Positions 17,570-26,899 of a stretch of DNA of 28,963 nt are shown piece by piece. Below the pieces are notes generated by a model. That model was not told where the DNA came from. It worked only from the letters and a program-made list of their open reading frames with translations, and did not search any database. Origin of the DNA: a virus; the IMG/VR virus record IMGVR_UViG_3300009177_000098, positions 1 through 28,963 of that record; one strand, 5' to 3'. A program made the translations under genes and the position numbers. Positions within the stretch are counted from its first letter, which is position 1. Each line of letters starts with the position of its first letter.

Positions 17570-18382
17570 ATGATGATCCGAACCGAAACCGTGATGACGA
17601 ATGACCAATTGCGCGCCGCGGCGCCGAGCGTATTCGCTACGCAACCGTGGCACGCTATGAGCGATCGCTATACCTTTATTCCCACGTCGGCCGTTGTCGA
17701 TCGTATGCGCGCGGAAGGTTTTCAGCCAGTCGCCGCGGCTCAATCGCGTACGCGCATTGAGGGCAAGGGCGAATTCACAAAGCACGTGATCCGATTCCGC
17801 GATATGCGCGCCGGCTCGGCGCCTGCTACTCGCGCGCTCGGCGTGGTTTATCCCGAGCTCGTTTTGACGAACTCTCACGATGGCGGTTCGGCGTACAAAC
17901 TCGATGCCGGCTTGTTTCGCCTGGTTTGCACTAACGGCATGGTTGTTTCCGACGGCGAATTCTCGCAAATCAACGTACGCCACTCGGGCTCGGCCGACGG
18001 CATTATTGAGGCGTCTTATCAGGTTGTCGAGCAATTTCCCAAGGTGATTGACTCGGCCGCGAGCTTTCAGGCGTTGCGGTTGTCGGCGCCCGAGCAAGCC
18101 GCATACGGCGCCGCGGCGCTCGCGCTTCGCTACGACGAAGGCATGGCGCCCGTCGCGCCGTCGCAAGTCATGCGCGCTCGCCGGACTGAAGACACGGCCG
18201 GTACACTCTGGAACGCGTTTAACGTCGCGCAAGAGAATTTAGTAGGTGGCGGGCTTCGCGGGCGCAACGCCGAAACCGGGCGCCGGCTCAAGACTCGGCC
18301 GGTAAACGGCATCAGCGAAAATGCGCGGTTGAATAAGGCGCTATGGACGCTCACGCAGGAAATGGCGAAGCTCAAGAGCTAA
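17570..18382 (+). CDS. DUF932 phage/plasmid-like protein
   Basis: 270 aa directly behind cassette P1. Recognisable DUF932 course: SDRYTFIPTSAVVDRMRAEGFQPVAAAQSRTR, KHVIRFRDM, YPELVLTNSHDGGSAYKLDAGLFRLVCTNGMVVSD, then IIEASYQVVEQFPKVI and the C-terminal TAGTLWNAFNVAQENLVGGG with INENARLNKALW-like end. The 'l.NShdG..a..l..G.fRlvC.NGmv' motif is diagnostic (compare plasmid and phage TIGR03299/DUF932 proteins). Molecular role is not established; members are often highly expressed early proteins. Two ATGs stand in tandem at 17570 and 17573. Confidence 0.9.
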   Translation: MMIRTETVMTNDQLRAAAPSVFATQPWHAMSDRYTFIPTSAVVDRMRAEGFQPVAAAQSRTRIEGKGEFTKHVIRFRDMRAGSAPATRALGVVYPELVLTNSHDGGSAYKLDAGLFRLVCTNGMVVSDGEFSQINVRHSGSADGIIEASYQVVEQFPKVIDSAASFQALRLSAPEQAAYGAAALALRYDEGMAPVAPSQVMRARRTEDTAGTLWNAFNVAQENLVGGGLRGRNAETGRRLKTRPVNGISENARLNKALWTLTQEMAKLKS

Positions 18383-19608: not shown

Positions 19609-20214
19609 ATGGCACTCAAGTTTGAAACAAACGTACCTAACGAACTGCGTATGCGGTCGATTACCGGCGAGCTCGTTGATTCGCAATTCGGCGGACAACA
19701 GTATCGCTTTATCAGCGAAGCGGGCGCCTTTTACGTATCCGAGCCGGTCGGCAATCTCTTGCACGATCGCTTTGAGCGGCTCGGCGTTAAGCCTGGTGAG
19801 GCAATCGAGATTTGCAAGCGCGAGATTTCGCGCAACGGCCGCAAGTCGATTCAATGGGAAGTGGCGCGCGTCGGCTTCGCGATCGGCGAGCAAGGCGATG
19901 GTACGTTTGCCATTTCGACGCCGGAACCGCCGAGCGACTTGGAAAAGCAGTTAGCGGCATCGCTCGCCGAAGTCGCGCGCCGCAAGGCGCCGGCCGCGGC
20001 GCCGGCCGCGAGCCGCACGGTAACAGAAATGGCGCAACCGTGGCAAGCGCACTTGCTCGCGCAAACGAACGCACTAACCGACGTGTTCGCCGCGGCCGTT
20101 GCTCATGCGAGCTCACAGCACGGCAACGCGGTTAAAGCCGATGACGTGCGCTCGCTCATGCTATCGGCGTTTATCAACATGGCGAAGGGCGGCGCCCGTT
20201 CCAATGCAGCATAG
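19609..20214 (+). CDS. Hypothetical early protein with beta-rich N-terminal domain, 201 aa
   Basis: Driven by P3. Residues 1-105 hold a beta-rich domain: QQYRFISEAGAFYVSEPVGN, LHDRFERLGVKPGEAIEICK, RNGRKSIQWEVARVG. The same course recurs in the gene at 20602, so the two are probably paralogues. After a Pro/Ala linker (ARRKAPAAAPAASRT) comes a helical end (PWQAHLLAQTNALTDVFAAA ... KADDVRSLMLSAFINMAKGG). The layout, OB-like domain plus acidic or helical tail, would suit a single-strand DNA or RNA binding protein, but this is inference. Confidence 0.7.
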   Translation: MALKFETNVPNELRMRSITGELVDSQFGGQQYRFISEAGAFYVSEPVGNLLHDRFERLGVKPGEAIEICKREISRNGRKSIQWEVARVGFAIGEQGDGTFAISTPEPPSDLEKQLAASLAEVARRKAPAAAPAASRTVTEMAQPWQAHLLAQTNALTDVFAAAVAHASSQHGNAVKADDVRSLMLSAFINMAKGGARSNAA

Positions 20215-20419: not shown

Positions 20420-20612
20420 ACCGTTGACGGCCGAGCAATTGCAGGCGTTACGATCGTTCGCCGATTACGCCGGCCGGACGTGGAAAGCGGAAATTCTGCA
20501 GGCTTGGGAGCGTGCTTCGATGCCTGGTATTATTCACGCCTTGCGTAACTCGCACGGTCCGACGTGGTTGGTAAACTTCCGATTCCCGAAGGCGGCGCAC
20601 AGTGAAAATTAA
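20403..20612 (+). CDS. Small hypothetical protein, 69 aa
   Basis: ATG 20403 with GAAAGGGAC upstream. LTAEQLQALRSFADYAGRTWKAEILQAWERASM ... IHALRNSHGPTWLVNFRFPK. The pattern 'L...ql.aL..Fa...GR.Wk..L...W........l..lRn.hGP.wL..fr.P' is a small phage family of unknown function. Overlaps its upstream neighbour by 17 bases and its downstream neighbour by 11. Confidence 0.75.
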   Translation: MNRQYEPLTAEQLQALRSFADYAGRTWKAEILQAWERASMPGIIHALRNSHGPTWLVNFRFPKAAHSEN

Positions 20613-20910
20613 ATTTGAGCTCGACGCGCCGCTAGTCGTTCACATGATGGACTTGGACGGCCGCGAGCGGGACTCGGCGTTTCCGCCGTTTGATACGTAC
20701 TGGACATTTGAGGCGGAAGAGGGACGCTTTTATCTCAGCGACACACAAGGCGGACTATTCCGCGCACGGCTCAAGGCGCGCGGTATCGCCGTCGGCGAGC
20801 CGGTAACGATCATCAAAACCAAAGTGCCGAATCCTAACAGCGATCGGCCGATCGTCGAATACTTGCCGTACCCTTGGATTCCGCTAGAATCCGGCCAGGT
20901 GGCGACGTAA
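20602..20910 (+). CDS. Beta-rich protein related to the 19609 gene product, 102 aa
   Basis: GTG 20602 overlaps the previous gene. DTYWTFEAEEGRFYLSDTQG, LFRARLKARGIAVGEPVTIIK, then VEYLPYPWIPLESG. Compare YRFISEAGAFYVSE / RFERLGVKPGEAIEICK in the product of 19609-20214: same order of aromatic, GxFY, GI/GV-x-x-GE and basic positions. A small nucleic-acid-binding fold is possible. A hairpin follows the stop. Confidence 0.7.
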   Translation: MKIKFELDAPLVVHMMDLDGRERDSAFPPFDTYWTFEAEEGRFYLSDTQGGLFRARLKARGIAVGEPVTIIKTKVPNPNSDRPIVEYLPYPWIPLESGQVAT

Positions 20911-20968: not shown

Positions 20969-21355
20969 ATGAAATTAGGCCATAAACTAGGGCTCGGTTG
21001 CATGGGGCTCATTATCGGTACGGGCGTTTTGATAGTCGTCGTCGCGATTCGGGATGTCGGCAACAAACCGACAGCGGAACAACGGGCGGCGAGCGACGCG
21101 CAACGCGACGGCTATACCGCGGCGTTCATGTGTCAGGGCGCCGTACGCGATCGCCTGAAGGCGCCGGCCGGCGCCGAGTTTCAGGCGCCGCGGCACGCCG
21201 ATATCACGCGGTTGACGGACGGTTACAAGATTGTCTCTTACGTGGACGCGTCCAACAGTTTCGGCGCGAAGATTCGCACGGCTTACACGTGCCTGGTTGG
21301 AACGAGCGGCGCCGGCTTTAAAATCGTGGCGCTCGACATTCAGAATCGGCGTTAG
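20969..21355 (+). CDS. Membrane-anchored or exported protein, 128 aa
   Basis: GGGCAGGG stands upstream of ATG 20969. Residues 8-27 are a single hydrophobic helix (LGLGCMGLIIGTGVLIVVVA) after a positive start (MKLGHK), so the protein is anchored with the rest outside, or secreted. The remainder FMCQGAVRDRLKAPAGAEFQAP ... DGYKIVSYVDASNSFGAKIRTAYTC is a known pattern of small exported bacterial proteins ('C...v...LkaPstA.F......Y.v.gyVDaqNsFGa.irt.y.C') with two conserved Cys. Could modify the host envelope; function not established. Confidence 0.72.
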   Translation: MKLGHKLGLGCMGLIIGTGVLIVVVAIRDVGNKPTAEQRAASDAQRDGYTAAFMCQGAVRDRLKAPAGAEFQAPRHADITRLTDGYKIVSYVDASNSFGAKIRTAYTCLVGTSGAGFKIVALDIQNRR

Positions 21356-21885
21356 TCGTCGCCGTCGTCGTCGGCGTCGTCGGCCGGCAGTGCGCGTGCT
21401 TCGATGATTCGCCCGAGCCGCTTCGCGAAGATTTCGCGCACGTCGCCGACGTTCGCCGCGTCGTCGTTGTCGTTGTCGGCCGCGAGCACCTTAACGGAAT
21501 GCGCGTCGAGTACATCGCGCATCATCGCTACCAGTGAGGCGCCGTCGTCGGCCGTGAGCTCGCCGCGGCTCACACGCTGAATCACTTCAAGCATCGCGGC
21601 GCGCACGTCGGCCGGCGTCTCGGTCTTGGGCAATTCGCATTGAATCGGCGCCGTGCGCGGCTTCGGCCAAATCCGATCGAAGATAATTTTTGCCGCGGTC
21701 ATATCGCCATTTTCCGCGGCCGTGATGACTTTCGACAGTAGCGGCAACGCTCGCGATCGCGCCGCGGCTTCAAGCGCGCGGTGTTTCCGGTTGCGGGCGC
21801 CGGCCGGTCGGCCGTTGCCGTTGTTGGGTGCCGGCGCCTGATTGGGCGCCGGCTCGAAATCGTCGATCAGACTAGCTTGCTCCAC
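21352..21885 (-). CDS. DUF5681-type protein, candidate small terminase
   Basis: 177 aa, minus strand, overlapping the end of the convergent membrane-protein gene by four bases. Residues 24-80 have the pattern GRPAGARNRKHRALEAAARSRALPLLSKVITAAENGDMTAAKIIFDRIWPKPR, then RTAPIQCELPKTETPADVRAAMLEVIQRVSRGELTADDG; this 'GRP.GarN......e......a..l..k.i..A..GD..A.k...dRi.P.......f.lP...t..d...a...v...v..Gelt' course is that of DUF5681-type phage/bacterial proteins. The C-terminus is very acidic (ending DADDDGDD). In several phages such proteins sit where TerS is expected; here it is 3.7 kb from TerL and inverted, so the role is inferred. Confidence 0.7.
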   Translation of the reverse strand: MEQASLIDDFEPAPNQAPAPNNGNGRPAGARNRKHRALEAAARSRALPLLSKVITAAENGDMTAAKIIFDRIWPKPRTAPIQCELPKTETPADVRAAMLEVIQRVSRGELTADDGASLVAMMRDVLDAHSVKVLAADNDNDDAANVGDVREIFAKRLGRIIEARALPADDADDDGDD

Positions 21886-22804: not shown

Positions 22805-23265
22805 GCGAGTTTGCCTTTTCTTCGCGATTTCTTCGCGTTGACTTCCACGTGAAATTGGCGATAGCCTTGTCTCGGTTGCATTCTGCTATACCTTGGTCGG
22901 GGCAGGGAAGTGGTTTGCGGGGGGAAATTCCCCGCATCAGTCCACCGGAGACGGACTCCCCGTCGTCTGCAGGTGCGTGCTTTCGGGCTCACACTGTAGG
23001 GGATATTACGGCGCCAACATCGGGCGCCGGCCGGTTGAATCCCGATCGGCGGGCGCCGTCTCGCGTGTAACCGCAATTCCGCCGTAAGCGGCGCCCAACA
23101 TGGGGGTTAACCGAATGTTGGGCTATTGTGATATCGTAATCACGACAAACAAAAGTTTTCGGCAACTTGACAGCCGTTTTCGCCATCTAGACGCGAAAAC
23201 GGCACGATGCGTCCAACATCGTGCCGTCATTGTTGGCCGGGAACGGGAAGATTTGAGGTATTACC
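22805..23265 (+). promoter_or_regulatory. Non-coding, hairpin-rich region upstream of the initiator-like gene
   Basis: No convincing gene in 460 bases. Visible structure: GGGGAAATTCCCC near 22921; AGTCC/GGACT near 22940; GGCGCC-AACATCG-GGCGCC (23010-23028); GCCCAACAT/ATGTTGGGC (23093-23101 and 23115-23123); GTGAT/ATCAC (23128-23143); GCCGTTTTCG/CGAAAACGGC (23173-23203); CGGCACGATG/CATCGTGCCG (23200-23226). The last two share bases and cannot form together. The word CAACAT follows C in three loops or stems (23014, 23096, 23214). TTGACA lies at 23167-23172, without a good -10. Candidate origin or regulatory switch. Confidence 0.5.
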
Positions 23266-24813
23266 GTGCGGCCTGAAACTGCATCGAGTATAACAGACGA
23301 TCGGGCAACTCCCAACAGAAAAGCCGCTTCGCGGAGCGATTTTTCGTCAAATAATTCAACGACTTCTGATAACGAATATTCTGTAATCGGAGCCGAAAGT
23401 GTTATACCGGAGTTACCTTTTGAGGGCGGTTACACGGCGATTGATAAGTGCCACGATAACGCACTCTCGCGCCGTACGGAAGGTATCCAGTACAACTTAG
23501 TAATTTTCATCATTGCCCGCACTACGTCGGCCGCTCGGCGCCCGCGGTTCGCGCAAATCACGATACGCGAGTACCGGCAACGTACGGGCAAATCCGAGCG
23601 GAATATATACCTTGCGCTTCATGAGCTTGAGCGTAAACGTTTGATCGAGCGGGACTCTAGCGGTGCCGTTCGCGCGTGCCCTGAAAACTTCGGCGCGGCG
23701 CCATTGCCGGCCGCGCGCAGATGCCAGAAGATCGCCAAGCAACTCGCGCCGTCATCGGTTGCCGCTCTTAGAGTCGCCGGCGAACGGGCGAGCGAAGCGG
23801 CGGAATCTTCGCACCTTCGCCCGCTCGTTGAGGCGCCGGCCGCGGCGTTACTGCAGTTAACTGCAGGAGGAAATGAGGAAGATATCCTAAGTGAAATTCA
23901 AAAGACGGACGGACAATTACGCGAACTCGGCGAGCGTCGTACCGAAGATCGACCGCATGGCGGCGCAACTCAAGCCGTGGGTGACGTGGGATGTGGCCGG
24001 GAGAATCCGAATCCAACGGAACCAATCGACGGCGTACTTGATAGCGGCGTTGAAAACGGAGCCGGCCGCACGGACGGCGATACAGGGAATATGGATGGGG
24101 GCTTTGTCGTCTTTGATACCGGATCACTTGGAGTCGATCAAGGGCTTTACGTGGTACGCCATAGATTAGCCGCGCGCCTGAAGTTAACTGCAGTCCGGCC
24201 AGGTTGCCGGCCGCGGAACGCGGCGCCCGCACTGCAGTTAACTGCAGTGAAACCTGAAGCAGACTACAGAAAACCTGAAACGTACTGCGCCTGGAATTGG
24301 GTATGTCCTTATCTGTCAACCGATTCGCCGCTCGTAAGCATTGAAACAAGAAACATAGAAGAACCGACGACGACGGGCGCCCGCTCGCCGTTGCCGGCCG
24401 AAACCGAAAACGCGTATTTAGCACGTTTTCTGCAACCTGCTACACGCATCGGCGAAGCGTTGCAAATCGACGATGACGCGGCCGGCCGCATGTGGCGCGA
24501 GTCGATCGCGCGCAATCCCGAGCTCACGCCGCGCGAGTTCGTTATCATCGTTCGGGCGAAGCTCGCCGAGTGGCGCCGCGTGGACGATACGGCGCCTGGT
24601 ATGCGCGTGCGATCGCTTACCGGCTTGCTGGTGCGTTCGATGCCGTCGGCCGTCGTCGGCGCCTTATGGCTTGCGGCGCGCGAGCAAGCGCCGGCCGATC
24701 TTGAGCGGGACTGTTACGCCGCGCGTGAAATACTCGCCTACGCCGACGCGACGCCGCGCGATCGGGCATGGGCTCGCGCGATGCTCGCCGAGCTTGCCGA
24801 ATCCGAAACATAA
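23266..24813 (+). CDS. Replication-initiator-like protein with winged-HTH domain, 515 aa
   Basis: GTG 23266 with GAGG upstream. Residues 70-137 (RTEGIQYNLVIFIIARTTSA ... ITIREYRQRTGKSERNIYLALHELERKRLIERDSSG) form a winged HTH as in phage O-like and plasmid initiators. Residues 174-187 come from palindromic copy 8. The middle (about 195-375) is Gly/Asp/Asn rich with poor codon use and three LxLTA peptides coded by 18-bp palindromes. The C-terminal 140 residues (AYLARFLQPATRIGEALQID ... ARAMLAELAESET) are helical with normal codon use, where a helicase or loader contact would be expected. The lambda O analogy (iterons in mid gene) is inference. Confidence 0.68.
   Translation: MRPETASSITDDRATPNRKAASRSDFSSNNSTTSDNEYSVIGAESVIPELPFEGGYTAIDKCHDNALSRRTEGIQYNLVIFIIARTTSAARRPRFAQITIREYRQRTGKSERNIYLALHELERKRLIERDSSGAVRACPENFGAAPLPAARRCQKIAKQLAPSSVAALRVAGERASEAAESSHLRPLVEAPAAALLQLTAGGNEEDILSEIQKTDGQLRELGERRTEDRPHGGATQAVGDVGCGRENPNPTEPIDGVLDSGVENGAGRTDGDTGNMDGGFVVFDTGSLGVDQGLYVVRHRLAARLKLTAVRPGCRPRNAAPALQLTAVKPEADYRKPETYCAWNWVCPYLSTDSPLVSIETRNIEEPTTTGARSPLPAETENAYLARFLQPATRIGEALQIDDDAAGRMWRESIARNPELTPREFVIIVRAKLAEWRRVDDTAPGMRVRSLTGLLVRSMPSAVVGALWLAAREQAPADLERDCYAAREILAYADATPRDRAWARAMLAELAESET
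23786..23826 (+). repeat. 41-bp palindromic element, copy 8 (inside initiator ORF)
   Basis: Left arm GGGCGAGCGAAG, right arm CTTCGCCCGCTC, inner GCGGA/TTCGC around ATC. Translated as E-R-A-S-E-A-A-E-S-S-H-L-R-P-L. Almost identical to copy 9, including about eight upstream bases (CCGGCGAAC). Confidence 0.9.
23850..23867. repeat. Internal palindrome 1 of the initiator gene
   Basis: CTGCAGTTAACTGCAG (23851-23866) is a perfect 16-bp palindrome. It directly abuts the AGGAGG at 23865-23870 that precedes the nested ORF. Confidence 0.85.
23891..24169 (+). CDS. Nested ORF in another frame of the initiator gene, 92 aa
   Basis: GTG 23891 follows a five-codon ORF (ATG 23873 to TAA 23888-23890) that has AGGAGG two bases upstream of its ATG; TAA and GTG are adjacent, allowing re-initiation. 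The product (KFKRRTDNYANSASVVPKID ... WVTWDVAGRIRIQRNQSTAYLIAALKTEPAAR ... GFTWYAID) looks like a real alpha/beta protein, and its third codon positions are mostly G or C, as in other genes here, whereas the surrounding long frame is atypical in just this stretch. It lies exactly between palindromes 1 and 2. Function unknown. Confidence 0.5.
   Translation: MKFKRRTDNYANSASVVPKIDRMAAQLKPWVTWDVAGRIRIQRNQSTAYLIAALKTEPAARTAIQGIWMGALSSLIPDHLESIKGFTWYAID
24177..24194. repeat. Internal palindrome 2 of the initiator gene (one mismatch pair)
   Basis: CTGAAGTTAACTGCAGT starts at 24178, eight bases after the nested ORF ends. It differs from the perfect palindrome at one base (GAAG for GCAG). Confidence 0.8.
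24231..24248. repeat. Internal palindrome 3 of the initiator gene
   Basis: ACTGCAGTTAACTGCAGT is a perfect 18-bp palindrome, 54 bases after site 2 and in the same coding phase. It is followed by an AT-richer stretch (24249-24360) with two AAACCTGAA words, a possible unwinding region. Confidence 0.87.
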
Positions 24814-25050
24814 ATCCGGTTGTTCGTTTTTGCTCACAATCCGGTAACATCGGGGAAATACCTATACCGTTCACACGGCGAAATGAAGTAGCCTTGTAAC
24901 CGAAACCACACCTATGCAGGAATTGCCCGTCGAGGGGCGATAGGGTGTACGGTTAAGTGCTAACTTTCGGCATTCGGGCGCCTTTTCCCTGTTTTTTTTG
25001 GGTTTTCCCGAATGCTCTCGGCATCGTAAGTCCCGTCGGGAAAATCTGTC
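24814..25050 (+). other. Intergenic region with a large stem-loop
   Basis: No gene is convincing here. GCATTCGGG (24970-24978) pairs with CCCGAATGC (25007-25015) around a 28-base loop containing eight T (24992-24999). The first half is mixed sequence with a GTAACATCGGGG word at 24843 that resembles the CAACATCGGG words upstream of the initiator gene. The region may end the initiator transcript and start the packaging transcript; no clear promoter is seen. Confidence 0.5.
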
Positions 25051-25074
25051 CCTCTTTTCCCTCCCCCAAAGAGG
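25051..25074 (+). promoter_or_regulatory. Hairpin covering the ribosome binding site of the next gene
   Basis: CCTCTTT (25051-25057) pairs with AAAGAGG (25068-25074) around a C-rich loop. AGAGG is the ribosome binding site for ATG 25082, so folding would hide it. Confidence 0.5.
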
Positions 25075-25081
25075 TTTCCGT

Positions 25082-25405
25082 ATGAGAATACCCGTCTTGA
25101 ATCGTGGCGGCGATATGATTTACCGCGTCCACGCCGGCGCAATGGCTCGCATGTTGCTACTCAAACAAGCGAAGTTAAGCGACGACGGCCGATGCCTGCA
25201 GTTGATCGACGTTACCGGCGCCGCGGCCGGCGACGCCGCGGCCGGCCGGACGCATACGAGCCGCGGCGGTTTGCTCGCCGTGATCGGCCGAAGCCAGCAA
25301 TACACGACGGCGAACGGCCGCGGCCAGGTGGACGGCTTCAAGCAGATTTACCCTGAAGACCTAGACATTTTCCGCGCGGCCGTACTGGACTGTATACCCA
25401 CATGA
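25082..25405 (+). CDS. Hypothetical protein upstream of terminase, 107 aa
   Basis: ATG 25082, seven bases after AGAGG. MRIPVLNRGGDMIYRVHAGA, then MARMLLLKQAKLSDDGRCLQLIDV, a Gly/Ala-rich segment (TGAAAGDAAAGRTHTSRGG) and YTTANGRGQVDGFKQIYPEDLDIFRAAVLDC. Strand-rich with no recognised family. Overlaps the next gene by ATGA, so it belongs to the packaging operon. Confidence 0.65.
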   Translation: MRIPVLNRGGDMIYRVHAGAMARMLLLKQAKLSDDGRCLQLIDVTGAAAGDAAAGRTHTSRGGLLAVIGRSQQYTTANGRGQVDGFKQIYPEDLDIFRAAVLDCIPT

Positions 25406-25596
25406 CGATAGGCGAGCTCAAAAAAGCGATCGCATCGCTTGACAATTCCCTGGAGATTGAAATAATCGTGCCGTATGAAGACGGCGACGGCGACGAAGTC
25501 GAGCGTAGTTACGATCTCGCCGCGGTTGGAGCCGTCATGGATCACGATACGGCGGGAGAATATGCGCGCTTCGAGTGCGTCGGCGTGCTTGAGTAG
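25402..25596 (+). CDS. Small acidic protein, 64 aa
   Basis: MTIGELKKAIASLDNSLEIE, IIVPYEDGDGDEVERSYDL, then AVGAVMDHDTAGEYARFECVGVLE. 'Mt.gEL...l..l....ev.i...d.g......y.l..v' is a common small phage/bacterial protein type of unknown role. It overlaps TerL by 35 bases, which couples their translation. Confidence 0.72.
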   Translation: MTIGELKKAIASLDNSLEIEIIVPYEDGDGDEVERSYDLAAVGAVMDHDTAGEYARFECVGVLE

Positions 25597-26899
25597 CGGC
25601 GCAACGCCGATCAATTTTAACCGGCTACCGGCCGGCGTCACGGCCGAGGAAATCGCGGCGACGGCCGCGAGCTTGAGCGAATCGGAAATCCGCGATTTGC
25701 TCTATTGTTGGGAGCTTTGGAGCCGGACCGAGCAGGAATGGCCGGCCGGCGATTGGCGGTTGTGGCTTATCATGGCCGGCCGCGGCTACGGCAAGACGCG
25801 AACGGGCGCCGAGACGGTCCGCCAGGTGGTGAATCAGGCGCCGCGGCAACGCATCGCGCTTATCGGGCCGACGGCCGGCGACTGCAGAGAGGTCATGGTA
25901 GAGGGCGAAAGCGGGCTCTTATCGGTGTTTCCACCGGCGCAACGGCCGATCTATGAGCCGTCAAAGCGGCGCGTGACGTTCCATAACGGCTCGCGGGCGT
26001 TTCTGTACTCGGCAGAGGAGCCGGAACGCTTGCGCGGTCCGCAACACCACTTCGCCTGGTGCGATGAAATCGCGGCGTACGCCAAGCTCAAAGACCTTTG
26101 GAGCAACCTGCAATTCGGGCTTCGGCTCGGCGATGATCCGCGCACACTCGCGACGACGACGCCGAAGCCGATCAAGTTTTTGAAAGACTTGCTCGCCGAC
26201 GATGGAACGATCGTTACGCGCGGTTCGACGTTCGACAATCGGGCGAACTTGCCGGCGTCGCAACTCGCCGAGTTTGAGCGGGTTTACGGCGGTACGCGCA
26301 TCGGCCGGCAAGAGCTCGGCGGCGAGCTCTTGGAAGAATCCGAGGGCGCGCTATGGTCACGCGAGACGATCGAGAAAAACCGCGTGCGCTCGGCGCCCGA
26401 GCTCGTGCGAATCGTGATTGCGATTGATCCGGCGACGACTTCGGGCGAAGATTCCGACGATACGGGGCTCGACGCGTTCGGCATCGACGCCGACGGCGAG
26501 GGGTATGTACTCGCCGATGACACTTGCCACCTTGGGCCGGCAGGTTGGGCGGCGCGCGCCGTGATGCTATTCGATCGGTTTGAAGCCGATAAAGTCATCG
26601 GCGAAGCCAACAACGGCGGCGATATGGTAGAGCAAACCATACGAACCGAGCGGCGCAATATCCCGTACGAAAAGGTTCACGCGAGCCGCGGCAAAGTGGC
26701 GCGCGCCGAGCCGATCGCGGCGCTATACGAGCAAGGGAAAATTCACCACGTCGGCGCGATGCCGGCGCTTGAGGATGAAATGGCGAATTTCGTACCGGGA
26801 CAGATGAAGAAATCGCCGAACCGCGTGGACGCGCTCGTTTGGGGTGCGTCGTATCTGATGCTCAAGCCGGCGCGCGTCGGCCGCGTGTTGAGTTTATGA
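25562..26899 (+). CDS. terL: Terminase large subunit
   Basis: 445 aa; start ATG 25562 chosen because GGGAGA stands just upstream, although the frame opens earlier. The packaging motor: Walker A GRGYGKTRT (73-81), Walker B FAWCDE (164-169, D168/E169), coupling motif TTTPKP (198-203). Nuclease domain: D289 in IAIDPATTS, E348 in IGEANNGG, D423 in SPNRVDALVWG, the three acidic residues expected of the RNase H-like fold. The sequence resembles HK97/GTA-type terminases (Terminase_6 family). It cuts and translocates genome DNA into the prohead through the portal. All key residues are present. Confidence 0.95.
   Translation: MRASSASACLSSGATPINFNRLPAGVTAEEIAATAASLSESEIRDLLYCWELWSRTEQEWPAGDWRLWLIMAGRGYGKTRTGAETVRQVVNQAPRQRIALIGPTAGDCREVMVEGESGLLSVFPPAQRPIYEPSKRRVTFHNGSRAFLYSAEEPERLRGPQHHFAWCDEIAAYAKLKDLWSNLQFGLRLGDDPRTLATTTPKPIKFLKDLLADDGTIVTRGSTFDNRANLPASQLAEFERVYGGTRIGRQELGGELLEESEGALWSRETIEKNRVRSAPELVRIVIAIDPATTSGEDSDDTGLDAFGIDADGEGYVLADDTCHLGPAGWAARAVMLFDRFEADKVIGEANNGGDMVEQTIRTERRNIPYEKVHASRGKVARAEPIAALYEQGKIHHVGAMPALEDEMANFVPGQMKKSPNRVDALVWGASYLMLKPARVGRVLSL

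Follow-up and report, generated by a model that had tools for sequence, protein, structure and literature searches.

In phage lambda, dimers of the O protein bind each inverted repeat of the origin and the adjacent A+T-rich region opens (PMC5043065, PMC7466680, PMC6022878). Four such iterons lie in the middle of gene O itself, at spacings of 20, 24 and 23 bp. A comparable arrangement is considered here for the open reading frame (ORF) at 23266-24813 of IMGVR_UViG_3300009177_000098, a 28,963-bp virus record analysed over its whole length (the window) that belongs to a tailed phage and carries a terminase large subunit gene at 25475-26899. This ORF of an uncultured phage, one of a set of environmental contigs, is a candidate for a lambda-like internal origin, a reading given a probability of about 0.78. 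By itself such an origin would be a further case of an already known layout; the unusual part is an optional gene apparently nested, in another frame, between its iterons.

The likeness to lambda gene O and ori-lambda, and to other lambdoid O genes, lies in a winged-helix-like N-terminal domain with a separate C-terminal domain, linker DNA that holds 18-19 bp inverted repeats within the gene, a neighbouring stretch of lower GC (guanine plus cytosine) content and, in part of the array, a repeat spacing of about 20-24 bp that is represented here only by weak copies at +22 and +43. Unlike lambda O, the window gene shows no significant sequence homology to that family, its strong palindromes are even-centred and lie 54 and 327 bp apart, no P homologue is found downstream, and a gene appears to be nested between the first two sites. 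The DnaD-like phage helicase loaders and replisome organisers (PHROG 186; replisome organiser N-terminal domain) likewise join an N-terminal winged-helix-turn-helix (wHTH) domain to a helical C-terminal domain and give weak profile matches to the window family (best E 0.0009), whereas the window protein is not significant in Pfam and its C-terminal domain has no recognised family. Iteron plasmid replicons of the RepA/RepE type also carry repeated initiator-binding sites, which in the window are putative; there, however, the repeats are direct-repeat iterons, in contrast to the perfect or near-perfect palindromes inside the window gene. Overprinted viral genes share the use of one DNA stretch in two frames, of which one is under little constraint and predicted to be disordered, but in the window the overlap falls between putative replication sites in an initiator gene and forms an optional, replaceable segment.

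The 18-bp sequence ACTGCAGTTAACTGCAGT, identical to its own reverse complement, occurs three times within the gene: at 23850-23867 (17 of 18 positions, one mismatch), at 24177-24194 (16 of 18, two mismatches) and at 24231-24248 (a perfect match). No further copy is present in the rest of the window at up to three mismatches, and 100 dinucleotide-preserving shuffles gave no match. The spacings of 327 and 54 bp are both divisible by three, and the three copies share one codon phase of the ORF, encoding LQLTA, LKLTA and LQLTA. None of 100 synonymous-codon shuffles of the gene produced a palindrome pair scoring as high as the real one, and the protein sequence is therefore not the explanation of the repeats. 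That the three copies share a codon phase says nothing about origin function, because mixed or other phases are used by the palindromes of the homologue L015 (phases 0 and 1), by the lambda iterons (0, 2, 2 and 1) and by two weaker copies in the window, at 24254 and 24275, that stand in a phase other than that of the three strong palindromes.

Eight distinct homologues of the initiator were found in IMG/VR (L006, L007, L008, L010, L011/L100, L098, L099 and L015), mostly adjoining a closely related terminase, and together with the window they make up the nine initiator genes compared; GTDB genomes yielded no homologue of the initiator, and a search of 50,697 phage records found none of it and none of the nested protein. 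A blind search took the best repeated palindrome pair of each gene and scored it against 100 synonymous shuffles; in eight of the nine genes this pair falls in the linker between the two domains and beats all 100. The test is even-centred, fails to detect lambda's own iterons and is thus silent on origins of that exact form. The repeats are of several classes: CTGCAGTTAACTGCAG in the window, forms of TGAAGTTAACTTCA in L007, L008, L011 and L098, CTGCATTTAAATGCAG in L010, TGAAACGGGTTTCA in L006 and TGAAAATATTTTCA in L015. Record-wide searches, which covered the window, TGAAG, GAAACGGGTTTC and AAAATATTTT classes, found these four confined to the initiator genes of the genomes that carry them, save for one two-mismatch match in the record of L099. 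The window palindrome as seen in L004 and L005, two other viral contigs, was set aside as a single copy, apparently the same unrelated sequence on opposite strands.

The similarity of the palindromes follows the identity of the N-terminal domains (r = 0.87, permutation p = 0.001); the correlation with the C-terminal domains is not significant (r = 0.46, p = 0.13). L099 and the window are 67% identical in the C-terminal domain and 19% in the N-terminal domain, and their palindromes differ. Most of this signal comes from two divergent N-terminal domains, those of L015 and L099. A neighbouring HTH_17 protein was rejected as the palindrome binder, since its sequence does not change along with the palindrome: it keeps 54-91% identity from one palindrome class to another, and 68-69% even in L015 and L099. 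The comparison supports the view that the palindromes of eight of the nine genes behave as putative binding sites of their own initiator.

The gene itself (plus strand, GTG start, 515 residues) is marked by its open frame, its homologues and purifying selection in the initiator frame within the N- and C-terminal domains (p = 0.0005). AlphaFold2, run with ten homologues, returned ordered segments at residues 65-149 and about 395-511 and a disordered stretch at 150-384, with an overall mean predicted local distance difference test (pLDDT) score of only 47.7; the palindromes map to the part of the gene that codes for the disordered linker. The N-terminal segment is predicted to be a winged-helix DNA-binding domain (23425-23748): nearly all of its listed PDB fold matches are winged-helix regulators of the GntR, MarR, LexA and CRP types, with probabilities up to 0.99 and E-values of 0.08 and above. 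Scanned alone, the N-terminal domains of five of eight members hit PHROG 678 ('replication initiation O-like') with a best E of 0.0019, and those of two of the eight hit the DnaD-like helicase-loader family phrog_186 (best E 0.0009). The whole initiator gave only sub-threshold matches in Pfam and PHROGs, no library gave it a confident name, and its PDB sequence matches, mostly to nuclear receptors, were discarded as chance-level. The neighbouring ORF downstream (24998-25405) matches no family, and after it comes the large terminase; because no P gene follows, the initiator is not filed as a member of the lambda O family, although it would function in the same way. Replication initiator is nonetheless the best reading of the 515-residue protein as predicted from its domains.

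The C-terminal helical domain (24448-24798, on ordered residues 395-511), for which no family was recognised, is 55-87% identical across the close members and L099, whatever their palindrome class, and is predicted to recruit the replication machinery. The C-terminal half begins with a conserved KPETYCxWNWxCPxLS motif (24271-24318) of invariant or nearly invariant columns. Within it YCxWNWxCPH is almost invariant in the family, the window having Y for H, and the two cysteines and the histidine could bind metal.

Beyond the last strong palindrome the array apparently continues in weaker form. The copy CTGAAGCAGACTACAG at 24254-24269 lies 22 bp beyond the iteron 3 core (24232) and matches it at 11 of 16 positions; the weakest copy, CTGAAACGTACTGCGC at 24275-24290, lies 43 bp after that core and matches at 9 of 16. 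Copies at +22 and +43 bp from the last strong palindrome are found in the window, L007, L008, L010 and L098, and at +21 and +42 bp in L006; those at +22, and the +21 copy of L006, match the palindrome class of their own genome. The CTGAAACGTACTGCGC copy overlaps codons of the conserved PETYC motif and counts for less, because protein constraint there may explain its conservation. A candidate unwinding region follows at 24250-24349, where GC content falls to 46%, the mean being 61% (z = -2.1); a dip recurs at the corresponding position in seven relatives (z of -1.7 to -2.6) and, more weakly, in L099 (-1.0). The right-hand part, about 24177-24350, is the likelier core of the putative origin.

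An earlier note on this DNA, made from the letters alone, had described three in-phase 18-bp palindromes inside an initiator gene with an N-terminal wHTH domain, likened them to the iterons of lambda-like O genes and pointed to an AT-richer stretch after the third copy. The palindromes are confirmed; the wHTH domain is supported, as a prediction, by the AlphaFold2 model and the fold and PHROG matches; the lambda-like layout gains support from its recurrence in eight of nine genes and from a repeat sequence that changes with the N-terminal domain; and the AT-richer stretch is real but modest. Cumulative GC skew, which the same note had suggested as a check, climbs across nearly the whole window and gives no information on the origin.

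Between palindromes 1 and 2 there is a second ORF (23891-24169, plus strand, GTG start), read in the +1 frame with respect to the initiator, with a product of 92 residues that includes the peptide IDRMAAQLKPWVTWDVAGR. Homologous ORFs occupy the same place and relative frame in L007, L008 and L010. L006 also has a +1-frame ORF there (L006:3-290), cut by the contig end, whose product could not be matched to those of the other nested ORFs; its +1-frame codon signal is the strongest of all. The ORF is lacking in L011/L100, L098, L015 and L099, and because several relatives lack it the nested gene is accessory. Codon bias in the +1 frame peaks in the nested interval and is as strong as in genes in the carriers of the ORF alone (p = 0.012, 0.014, 0.002, 0.115 and 0.001 for the five carriers; no signal in the four non-carriers). 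Within the interval, amino-acid changes in the +1 frame are fewer than random between the window and L007 (p = 0.004-0.008) and between the window and L008 (p = 0.001-0.0035), and the initiator frame shows no purifying selection in these pairs; in the flanking N- and C-terminal domains it is the initiator frame that is protected and the +1 frame that is not. AlphaFold2 predicts from four sequences a small alpha/beta fold of mean pLDDT 76, with a core of about 85, to which profile and fold searches matched no known family or fold; no stand-alone copies of the protein were found. Codon bias, selection and predicted fold appear to be three independent signals for a nested gene whose expression is predicted. 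The earlier note had ascribed the atypical coding of this region to DNA function outweighing protein function. This is not simply so, since between palindromes 1 and 2 the coding is atypical because a second, +1-frame ORF is under purifying selection there; it appears that a gene in this interval had been missed. To our knowledge no lambda-type origin hosts a nested gene, and no case was found in the open-access literature searched, the coverage of which is incomplete.

Several findings weigh against an internal origin with a nested gene. L099 fails the palindrome test and offers a weaker candidate only; the six closest members taken alone give r = 0.45 for the N-terminal domain against 0.35 for the C-terminal domain; in Pfam the homology to lambda O does not reach significance, Phage_rep_O matching a single member at E 0.26, and it is no more than suggestive in PHROGs and in hhalign, which aligns the N-terminal domain in register with the lambda O wHTH domain at a non-significant E of 0.17 (probability 0.35%); and the strong palindromes are far more widely spaced than those of lambda. 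As to the nested ORF, the codon-bias test is weak for L010 (p = 0.115, the other four carriers having p of 0.014 or less), the selection test between the window and L010 is negative (p = 0.53), and length alone is not significant in DNA so rich in GC. Length was in fact dropped as evidence, long +1-frame runs being common here by chance.

These last points, together with the fact that only four homologous copies are known, are what favours the alternative that the nested ORF is no gene at all, its +1-frame signal being an accident of composition in a linker that simply evolves fast. This is unlikely: the selection signal changes frame exactly in the nested interval, gene-like codon bias is restricted to the genomes that carry the ORF, and a small alpha/beta fold is confidently predicted. 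A somewhat less probable alternative takes the palindromes not as an origin but as operators, serving either autoregulation or some other regulator of the phage, in the manner of the lambda OR trio. Three palindromic sites and a winged-helix protein are indeed encoded at the same place, and many wHTH regulators bind palindromes as dimers, but the sites lie deep inside coding sequence with no promoter-like site nearby beyond chance, the HTH_17 neighbour is not a co-varying partner, and the extra weak copies at a spacing of two helical turns, with the GC dip, suit an origin better. Still more improbable is that the palindromes are recombination boundaries for swapping the enclosed segment and have no part in replication. 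Palindromes do stand on both sides of the nested ORF, the genomes differ in having this ORF, an unrelated one or none at that position, and the relatives are mosaic at the palindrome points; however, L011, L098 and L015 have no nested ORF and still keep two or three palindromes, and the palindrome sequence tracks the N-terminal domain. Recombination may be a side effect of the repeats. Conservation of a repeated L-Q/K-L-T-A peptide in place of a DNA function is scarcely credible, for although six close members share the codon phase and similar peptides, synonymous shuffles fail to recreate the palindromes, the phases in L015 differ, and L006, L010 and L015 encode other peptides at their sites.

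On the favoured reading of a lambda-like internal origin, the N-terminal winged-helix domain would most likely bind, as a dimer, to palindromes in the linker-coding part of its own gene. Once bound to the cluster on the right (24177, 24231 and the weak sites at 24254 and 24275, about two helical turns apart), it would strain the DNA and open the adjoining stretch of lower GC content, and the host helicase would be recruited by the C-terminal domain, either directly or via a loader. The linker DNA would be used twice: the 92-residue +1-frame protein would be the product that selection preserves between palindromes 1 and 2, and the initiator would read the same segment as unconstrained spacer. 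A more tentative proposal, on balance doubtful, is that the initiator linker is a cargo slot in which small +1-frame genes are inserted between the origin iterons, the initiator tolerating the insert, which it would read as a disordered spacer, and the iterons bounding the insert and helping it to be swapped.

Other features of the window include two small proteins of unassigned function, encoded at 19609-20214 and 20602-20910, that resemble one another (32% identity over 75 residues, E 3e-10), are probably paralogues and are both conserved in relatives. A DUF932 protein is encoded at 17570-18382 (87-90% identical in three relatives), and a DUF5681-like gene lies on the minus strand at 21352-21885 amid plus-strand genes (65-97% identical in seven relatives). 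Upstream of the initiator an intergenic stretch of ~460 bp (22805-23265), with two visible inverted repeats near 23175-23227 that are also present in relatives, is a possible control region.

If the internal origin is right, it would be a mapped origin for a phage group that has no cultured relative in the collection searched, and the family would provide a natural series of initiator and iteron pairs, with at least five distinct specificities, from which the rules of site choice by winged-helix initiators could be worked out. A further consequence would be a gene inside a replication origin that itself lies within the initiator gene, a linker being reusable to encode another protein; nested genes of this kind are normally discarded by gene callers. 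Should the cargo-slot proposal prove true as well, the origin would hold exchangeable accessory genes within the very gene for replication.
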